Program-made: the position numbers and the translations under genes
Assembly (NCBI GenBank): GCA_902555465.1
Contig: CACDSN010000003.1
Coordinates: 34,152-98,151 of the forward strand
From: an uncultured Pelagibacteraceae bacterium
GTDB lineage: Bacteria > Pseudomonadota > Alphaproteobacteria > Pelagibacterales > Pelagibacteraceae
Length of the DNA: 64,000 bases
Direction: 5' to 3'
Notes under the pieces: model-generated
What the model was told of the DNA's origin: nothing
Seen by the model: only the letters and a program-made list of their open reading frames with translations
Database searches by the model: none
Shown: piece by piece, positions 4,646-9,737 of the stretch
Numbering within the stretch: the first letter of the stretch is position 1
Layout of the letters: each line of letters starts with the position of its first letter

Positions 4646-5857
4646 TTAAACCTTTTCAAAAATTAAAGACGCATTGGTCCCACCAAAACCAAAGCTATTA
4701 GACATAACTGAATTTAATTCCACATCCTTTTCAGTTTGAGTAATAATAGGGAATTTTTTAGCATCTTCATCCATATCATTTATATTTGCTGATGCGGTTA
4801 TAAAATTGTTTTTCATCATTATTAAACTATAAATAGCCTCATGAACTGATGCAGCTCCTAAAGGATGGCCAGACAGGGATTTAGTTGAGCTGATTTTAGG
4901 AATTTTAGATCCAAAAGTTTCTCCGACTGCATTTAACTCTGTAATGTCACCTACCGGTGTTGAAGTTCCATGAGTATTTAAATAATCAATTTTATTTTTT
5001 GATGTTGCGAGTGCCATTTTCATACATCTAATAGCTCCTTCACCAGATGGAGCTACCATATCATAACCATCAGAAGTTGCTCCATAACCCGTCAATTCTG
5101 CATATATTTTTGCACCTCTAGATTTTGCGTGTTCATATTCTTCAAGAACAAGAACACCCGCACCTCCAGCAATTACAAATCCATCTCTAGTTTTATCGTA
5201 TGCTCTAGAAGCTTTTTCAGGTGTATCATTATATTTTGAAGATAATGCTGTCATGGCATCAAACATAGCAGTCATCGCCCAATGAATTTCCTCACTTCCT
5301 CCTGCAAAAACAATATCTTGTTTACCCATTTGAATTAACTCCATAGAATTACCAATACAATGTCCACTAGTAGCACATGCAGAACTCATGGTGTAATTAG
5401 TTCCTTTAATTTTAAATGGAACCGCAAGTGTTGCAGATGCGGTACTAGCCATAGTTCTTGGAACAATGAAAGGACCCATTAGCTTTGGTGTTTTTGCTCT
5501 TGTTTTATCTGCGGCAAGTATAACATTTTCAATGGAAGGTCCTCCAGAACCCATAACAATCCCAGTTTTAAAATTACTTACATCTTTTTCTTCTAAGCCA
5601 GAGTCCTCGATAGCTTCTTTCATTGCTATATAATTGTAGGCAGAGCCAGAACCCATAAACCTAATTGTTTTTCTATCTATATGATCTTCAAGCTTAATAT
5701 TAGGTTTACCATGAATATGACTTTTAAGATTATGCTCCTTATATTCCTCAGAGAACGAAATTCCAGATTTTGAATTTAATAACGATTGTTTTACATCCTC
5801 TTGATTATTTCCTAGACAGGAAACTATGCCTAAACCTGTTACAACTACTCTTCTCAT
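4646..5857 (-). CDS. fabB: 3-oxoacyl-[acyl-carrier-protein] synthase I
   Basis: [18 protein letters not shown]..., active site [35 protein letters not shown]; between fabI and fabA. Confidence 0.94.
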
Positions 5858-6357
5858 TATTTAAATAATCCTACCTTTAAATTTTCTGCAGAATAAATTT
5901 TTTTTCCATCTGCTAATAATATACCATTTGCGAGGCCAACTGTAGTTTCTCCTTTAATTATTATTCTTTTCATATCTATTTCATAAGTGGCTTTTTTAAC
6001 ATTTTTTAGAACTTCTCCAGTAAATTTAACCGTACTTACGCCTAAAGCTCTTCCTCTACCAGGATTTCCAAGCCATCCAAGATAAAATCCAACTAATTGC
6101 CACATCGCATCCAAACCTAAACATCCTGGCATAACTGGATCCTCTTTAAAGTGACAATTAAAAAACCATAAATCATCTTTAATATCCAACTCAGCTTTAA
6201 TTAATCCTTTTTTATATGTTCCAGTATTTTCACTAATTTCAGTAATTCTGTCAAACATCAGCATTGGAGGAAGGGGTAATTTTGCATTTCCTGGGCCAAA
6301 TAATCCACCTTCTCCGCAGTGAATTAACTCATCGTAGGTATAGGAGTTTTTTTTCAT
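5857..6357 (-). CDS. fabA: 3-hydroxydecanoyl-ACP dehydratase/isomerase
   Basis: [11 protein letters not shown]..., [31 protein letters not shown], FabA signature. Confidence 0.95.
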
Positions 6358-6404
6358 AAAAGTTTAACCTTAATACTTGATTTCAAGCAATTATAACATT
6401 ACTA

Positions 6405-6424
6405 TAGTTTAGAATAATTATAAA
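6405..6424. promoter_or_regulatory. Candidate Fur-family (Irr/PerR-like) operator, copy 1
   Basis: TAGTTTAGAATAATTATAAA; reverse complement TTTATAATTATTCTAAACTA matches the copy at 6846-6865 at 19/20 positions; lies 2 nt before the irr-like ATG and in the fabA/irr divergent gap. Confidence 0.65.
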
Positions 6425-6426
6425 GT

Positions 6427-6852
6427 ATGACAAAAGCTGAGACAAATTTCTTAGTAAAATTAAGAAGTTCTGGGTTAAGACCAACAAAGCAAAGAATTAA
6501 AATTTGCGAAGTGTTGTTTAATCGAGATAAAACTTTTCATTTTTCGATAAATGATTTAACAAATATTATTCAAAATCAACACAATGAAAAAATTTCATTA
6601 GCTACCGTGTATAATACAGTACATGCATTTAAAAAAAAAGGTTACTTGAAAGAAATTAATATTGGAAACGATATGTCGTATTTTGATACAAATACAACTT
6701 CACACCATCATTTCTATGATGAGCAGACTAAAGAATTAATTGATATTAATTCTCAAGAAGTTGAAATAAAAAAGACACCAACACCTCCAAATGGAAAAAA
6801 AATTGAAGGTGTTGAAGTTACTTTTAAAATCTCAAAAAAATCTAGTTTATAA
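6427..6852 (+). CDS. irr: Fur-family transcriptional regulator, Irr-like
   Basis: LRSSGLRPTKQRIKICEVLF...ISLATVYNTVHAFKKKGYLKEI...TSHHHFYDEQTKELIDI; no CxxC zinc motifs; irr-fabA-fabB-fabI arrangement. Confidence 0.8.
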   Translation: MTKAETNFLVKLRSSGLRPTKQRIKICEVLFNRDKTFHFSINDLTNIIQNQHNEKISLATVYNTVHAFKKKGYLKEINIGNDMSYFDTNTTSHHHFYDEQTKELIDINSQEVEIKKTPTPPNGKKIEGVEVTFKISKKSSL

Positions 6853-6865
6853 TCATTCTAAACTA
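6846..6865. promoter_or_regulatory. Candidate Fur-family (Irr/PerR-like) operator, copy 2
   Basis: TTTATAATCATTCTAAACTA, overlapping the irr-like stop codon (6850-6852) and 53 nt upstream of katG ATG. Confidence 0.65.
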
Positions 6866-6884
6866 CTTGACTTTTTATATTTAA

Positions 6885-9128
<2,244 letters not shown>

Positions 9129-9143
9129 AAAAGGGACAAACTT

Positions 9144-9737
9144 ATGGCGGAAATGAGTTTTGAGGATTTTTATAAAGTACCAGACTTAAAGTTTGATATT
9201 TTTAGACTTAGAAAAGATTTAGAAAAAGTATTAGAGAGAAAAAAATTTGAATCTCCTGGAGTTACTCACTTTGGAGCAATCCCACTTAATAGAGTTCCTA
9301 ACGATAAAAGTTCAATTGAAGGGAATAATGTACGAGGTAAATACTGGACTATTGCTGACGAGACTGGAAAAGAAGTGTCTAGAGATATAGATATTGATGA
9401 ATCGAAATATACAGAACTTGTTCCAGAATTTGAGGATACTTACTTTAAAGAAGTATATAATAGCCTAAAAAATAGATTTAAATTAGGTAGAGTTAGACTT
9501 CTTTTAAAAGAACCAAGATCCACCTTAAGTTGGCATAAAGATCCAGAACCTAGACTGCACATACCCATTGTAACTAATAAAGGATGCATGATGGTTATAG
9601 AAAACGTAGCTAAACACATGCCCGCTGACGGTACAGCAACAATTACAAATAATAAAAAATTTCATAATTTTTTTAATGGTGGAGAGCAGGCGCGAGTTCA
9701 TCTTGTAGCATGTGTATTAGAGGATCCCTTTAACTAA
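9144..9737 (+). CDS. Aspartyl/asparaginyl beta-hydroxylase-like (2OG-Fe cupin fold) protein
   Basis: LLLKEPRSTLSWHKDPEPRLHIPIVTNKGC...HNFFNGGEQARVHLVACV: HxD...H pattern; 15 nt after katG. Confidence 0.6.
   Translation: MAEMSFEDFYKVPDLKFDIFRLRKDLEKVLERKKFESPGVTHFGAIPLNRVPNDKSSIEGNNVRGKYWTIADETGKEVSRDIDIDESKYTELVPEFEDTYFKEVYNSLKNRFKLGRVRLLLKEPRSTLSWHKDPEPRLHIPIVTNKGCMMVIENVAKHMPADGTATITNNKKFHNFFNGGEQARVHLVACVLEDPFN

Follow-up and report, generated by a model that had tools for sequence, protein, structure and literature searches.

The two nearly identical operators that bracket the irr gene in this SAR11 genome probably belong to the adjacent Irr, a Fur-family regulator that would use them to repress both itself and the catalase-peroxidase gene katG, and katG seems to occupy an exchangeable slot for peroxidase genes. 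Comparison of genome sequences shows that the sites are real and conserved, that they go with irr and that their target gene was exchanged; binding, repression and signal are what we infer from it. In the window – the whole stretch of 64,000 nucleotides that was analysed – the locus runs from fabA (divergent) through operator 1, irr, operator 2 and katG to a gene whose product has a domain resembling aspartyl/asparaginyl hydroxylases:

5857..6357, minus strand: fabA, divergent neighbour in conserved synteny (TIGR01749, 264.3 bits)
6377..6405, plus strand: weak candidate promoter of irr, TTGATT, 17 nt, TACTAT (8/12 matches)
6405..6424, minus strand: operator 1, flanked by the weak irr promoter and the start codon of irr
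6408-6424, plus strand: palindromic core of operator 1, TTTAGAATAATTATAAA
6427..6852, plus strand: irr, Fur-family regulator of the Irr type, 141 aa
6846..6865 (core 6846-6862), plus strand: operator 2, upstream of the katG -35 hexamer, 4 bp away
6867..6895, plus strand: predicted katG promoter, TTGACT, 17-nt spacer, TATATT (10/12 consensus matches)
6908-6912, plus strand: katG ribosome site, GGAGG
6918..9128, plus strand: katG, catalase-peroxidase HPI, 736 aa (TIGR00198, 1165.8 bits; cut-off 770.25)

An earlier note on this DNA had described twin sites in inverted orientation, and direct sequence comparison together with window and genome scans bears this out: the minus-strand sequence at 6405-6424 (TTTATAATTATTCTAAACTA) and the plus-strand sequence at 6846-6865 (TTTATAATCATTCTAAACTA) are identical at 19 of 20 positions. 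They share the 17-bp core TTTAGAATnATTATAAA, for which a whole-genome scan found exactly two perfect matches in 1.16 Mb, namely operators 1 and 2. When up to three mismatches are allowed, the window is matched solely at these two loci, and the near-palindromic motif makes each of them a hit on both strands; shuffled sequence leads one to expect a mean of 0.61 matches. One half of the core reads TTTAGAA and the other TTATAAA, an asymmetry that is conserved among relatives, and the distance of a single base between the core and the PerR box TTATAATnATTATAA, also claimed before, is correct.

Operator 1 lies directly downstream of the -10 element of the candidate irr promoter, which was read from the sequence and falls under the promoter-scan threshold, and it stops two bases before the irr ATG at 6427. 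Operator 2 covers the irr TAA (6850-6852) and ends 52 bp from the katG ATG (6918). This overlap had been read as an operator lying within coding sequence. In the closest relatives, five in number (L215-L219), irr ends at TAG and the site begins right after this stop codon; the overlap is thus an incidental quirk of this one genome.

The conservation of the operators was surveyed in 89 relatives with an irr locus, i.e. in 178 regions, with a site defined as a match at 14 or more of 16 positions. An equivalent of operator 1 adjoins the irr start codon in 76 of the 89, and 88 of 89 have at least one operator at the promoter of the gene that comes next, so that the suspicion that the sites might not be conserved at irr and katG orthologues clearly fails. 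Many target promoters carry a pair of operators: the outer one stops 4 bp short of TTGACA, the inner one covers the -10, and their centres are separated by 30-33 bp, roughly three turns of the helix. The spacing between the operators and TTGACA or TTGACT is constant in relatives. At katG, the window shares with five close relatives the presence of the upstream operator alone, 4 bp from the -35; the second, -10-covering operator found in many relatives is missing from this clade. At position 5 of the core, every downstream site has G (61/61 and 62/62). A simple reason for the asymmetry of the half-sites could be that the TTATAA half doubles as the -10 of the inner operator. In a divergent subgroup (G119, G026 and G009; loci L052, L061 and L058), operator 1 is missing, and a single near-symmetric site, TTTAGAATCATTCTAAT, lies upstream of the katG promoter.

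Genomes that lack irr reveal with which gene the operator travels. Genera g2, g3 and g4 as well as genome G177 of genus g6 possess katG without irr, and in all eight irr-less genomes examined no site matching at 13 or more of 16 positions was found within 250 bp before katG. Where irr is missing, so is the operator, though katG stays; the operator therefore follows irr, not katG. G177 has lost both irr and the site, and its fabA adjoins katG directly. The irr-less relatives L329, L330, L335 and L336 carry a katG of the other lineage downstream of a gene that, judged by eye, resembles an FTR1-type iron permease. Control of fabA, considered possible in the earlier note, finds no support: no conserved fabA promoter was seen to be tied to the site, and G177 keeps fabA after the loss of irr and site. 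A minus-strand TTGTCT-17-TATAAT does overlap operator 1, but its -35 sits in the irr coding sequence, and it was rejected as a candidate.

Scans of 10 relatives with near-complete or draft genomes returned 12 exact 16-bp sites, every one of them at irr. Near matches elsewhere in the genome fall mostly inside genes and, at two mismatches, are no commoner than those of a reversed control pattern (45 versus 57). A wider regulon was rejected on these grounds, and SAR11 Irr looks, on the strength of these scans, like a single-locus regulator.

The neighbouring gene had been called Irr/Fur-like, and comparison supports this in that its product appears to be an Irr homologue of the Fur family. The protein reaches 78.4 bits against the Pfam FUR model (cut-off 23.1). 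By far its best-scoring NCBIfam models are IrrA and Irr, both under their cut-offs (135.8, cut-off 150; 123.8, cut-off 170); SAR11 Irr proteins as a group score just under the bulk of the alphaproteobacterial class. None of the PerR models is reached (64.1 for PerRA, cut-off 200; 55.4, cut-off 250; 48.9, cut-off 180). The regulator possesses H38, N63, D87, the histidines 93-95 and D106. The columns of the five PerR-type regulatory ligands show no variation among 139 Irr sequences from SAR11 and other Alphaproteobacteria, and neither do the two histidine columns of the HxH heme-binding motif, here H93-H94-H95. The GCP heme regulatory motif is absent from all SAR11 sequences and present in 2 of the 30 other Irr; it does not define the family, since the Irr proteins of R. 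sphaeroides and Brucella also lack it (PMC3413700). Asn63 in the recognition helix and Asp106 form a pair that is common to PerR and Irr, not to Fur (PMC8638967), and the genome's own Fur has Arg at the position equivalent to the Asn. Because the PerR ligands and the recognition-helix Asn are equally conserved in Irr (PMC8638967), they do not separate PerR from Irr. The predicted structure, of moderate confidence (pLDDT 75.7), resembles PerR/Fur structures and confirms the fold only.

What varies at this locus is the gene behind irr: in the 89 loci it is katG in 55, rubrerythrin in 32 and a Prx5-like peroxiredoxin in 2. Across the 121 genomes of the genus, many of them incomplete, irr was found in 110, katG in 61 and rubrerythrin in 34, none of the latter with katG; this mutual exclusion has a Fisher P of 5e-14 over the 121 genomes, uncorrected for kinship. 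In the 55 katG genomes whose junction was recovered, 41-132 bp separate irr from katG. On a tree of irr and fabA, the gene in the slot changes at least nine times, the exact number being soft given the short alignment. The slot holds two KatG lineages that are 55-60% identical to each other, and lineage A shares up to 69% identity with unrelated proteobacterial KatGs. A KatG tree sets these lineages apart; its outside sequences were picked by similarity to the window's KatG, and it therefore does not place lineage B. From these comparisons, SAR11 lineages appear to have repeatedly swapped the peroxidase gene while retaining the operators, and the presence of katG in SAR11 would come down to which peroxidase fills one Irr-controlled slot. 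The two peroxiredoxin loci (L037 and L040; the Prx5-like gene was identified by eye) have operators on both sides of the -35. After katG, the window encodes a 197-aa protein (9144-9737) with a weak match to Asp/Asn beta-hydroxylase (PF05118, 28.3 bits); homologs of it occur in 23 of 34 katG loci with enough sequence versus 0 of 38 rubrerythrin loci, and this hydroxylase-like gene seems to travel with katG.

For the ancestry of the slot we examined 30 other alphaproteobacterial Irr loci, which are the best-scoring ones and not a random draw. Rubrerythrin, 64-86% identical to that of SAR11, follows irr in 25 of the 30, and 9 of those 25 loci have an ICE-pattern site (at least 14/16) between the two genes; fabA stands divergent from irr across the SAR11 loci and in 13 of the 30. 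In family f2 of the SAR11 order, rubrerythrin has a perfect ICE, TTTAGAATnATTCTAAA, in front of it, accompanied by a distinct box of the Fur type, TTGATAATnATTATCAA. In the f2 locus L180 (likewise in L181, L182 and L184), the Fur-type box, which reads TTGATAATAATTATCAA in L180, stands near the irr stop, 6 bp ahead of the perfect ICE. This layout suggests that f2 rubrerythrin may be under double control by Fur and Irr. We read the order irr, ICE, rubrerythrin as the probable ancestral state and katG as a replacement.

Our proposal is that an Irr dimer bound at operator 1, just downstream of the irr promoter, would limit synthesis of Irr itself, and that Irr bound at operator 2, beside the katG -35 hexamer, would limit katG. 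An inactivating signal – oxidation of the metal site by peroxide, or loading with heme or iron – would free both operators, upon which KatG and its regulator would rise together. The old alphaproteobacterial layout of irr, ICE-like site and rubrerythrin would have been kept in its operator, while the peroxidase was exchanged and the regulon shrank to one locus.

The repeats might be due to chance, or arise from promoter elements and the AT-rich sequence between genes, given that the region is AT-rich and the core contains TATAAT/TATAAA, which resemble a -10. Against this, sites were observed in 164 of the 178 surveyed regions, the reversed motif in 0 of 178 and shuffled motifs in 0-4; the background rate is 2 sites in 459,148 positions, and the invariant G of the core serves no promoter element. 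Together with the window shuffles, these controls lead us to dismiss chance as having practically no probability. Another alternative assigns the sites to Fur or another Fur-family paralogue, with iron control of katG: the genome does encode Fur and a third family member, Fur directly controls katG in Magnetospirillum (PMC3251581), and the 7-1-7 palindromic layout is common to Fur boxes and the operators. Yet the core is without the GATAAT half-sites of Fur boxes, family f2 has a separate Fur-type box beside its ICE, and the Arg carried by the genome's Fur goes with Fur boxes (rule cited in PMC8638967); moreover, the operator is gone where irr is missing, and exact sites are limited to the irr locus in the genomes scanned. 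We regard control by Fur or another paralogue as very improbable, and Irr as the probable owner of the operators.

As for the mode of action, Irr can activate or repress according to the position of the ICE (review, PMC7762939). Operator 1 and the inner operator over the -10 are in repressing positions; a site upstream of the -35 is compatible with activation or repression, and the window's sole katG operator, centred at about -48, is such a site. Irr might activate katG here by recruiting RNA polymerase from upstream of the -35, with autorepression via operator 1 alone, as the retention of just the upstream operator in the window and five close relatives would allow. The same reading draws on Candidatus P. 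ubique, where mRNA of the rubrerythrin SAR11_0399 rises 1.57-fold under iron limitation (P 0.025), a condition in which apo-Irr binds DNA, and Irr protein is unchanged (PMC2864753). Conversely, an operator in the repressing position over the -10 is present in 50 of 55 katG genomes, and the upstream operator was detected in 27 of 55 and is undetectable in at least 23 of 55. We consider activation of katG rather unlikely, and repression the probable way in which Irr acts.

As to the signal, peroxide is suggested by the nature of the targets, which are peroxidases, and by the Asp/Asn pair; heme and iron are suggested by the history of the family. SAR11_0399 is presumably the irr-linked copy, because rubrerythrin is single-copy and linked to irr in the genomes examined. 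Its rise in low iron argues weakly against simple classical repression by Irr, which would set in at low iron, and would fit a PerR-like repressor dependent on Fe(II), or an activator.

Among known systems, the Irr/ICE pair of other Alphaproteobacteria (Bradyrhizobium, Rhizobium, Rhodobacter) is similar in its Irr-type protein with HxH, in its palindrome of the type TTTAGAA-n3-TTCTAAA, and in the position of irr beside rubrerythrin and fabA across the class. Its targets include the rubrerythrin-like and peroxidase genes mbfA/blr7895 and ccpA (PMC3413700), and autoregulation of Irr is reported for Brucella, going by a title cited in PMC2864753. In R. sphaeroides, the katE promoter is not bound by Irr and the effect on katE is indirect (PMC3413700). 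SAR11 differs in that one half-site is the PerR-like TTATAAA instead of TTCTAAA (perfect ICE in f2, a variant in one half in the genus), in the missing GCP motif, in exact sites at the irr locus only as opposed to a genome-wide regulon, and in katG as the target in about half of the sampled genomes. PerR of katA, ahpC and rubrerythrin (Bacillus, Leptospira) has in common with the SAR11 regulator the five ligands (H37, D85, H91, H93 and D104 in B. subtilis), the helix Asn, a box one base away and a peroxidase target, and PerR chains are the nearest solved structures; unlike PerR, the regulator lacks the CxxC zinc site, and its orthology, synteny and profile scores indicate Irr. The Fur-katG system of Magnetospirillum gryphiswaldense (PMC3251581) is likewise a case of Fur-family regulation of an alphaproteobacterial katG, but with another paralogue, box and gene order. 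As judged on a limited coverage of the literature, the operators are in kind the known Irr/ICE pair, and the conserved irr-bound peroxidase slot is a new target arrangement.

SAR11 are very abundant ocean bacteria, and hydrogen peroxide is one of the main oxidants of sunlit seawater. Tentatively, and with more reserve than for the assignment of the operators, we suggest that SAR11 Irr may have changed from a genome-wide regulator of heme and iron into a PerR-like peroxide switch of a single locus, in whose slot unrelated peroxidases – rubrerythrin, two KatG lineages and a peroxiredoxin – were swapped many times. Which bacteria retain catalase is central to ideas of shared detoxification in plankton, and for SAR11, where regulators are very few and genetic tools scarce, the locus provides a testable regulatory rule as well as a natural experiment in which regulator and operators are constant and the target enzyme varies.
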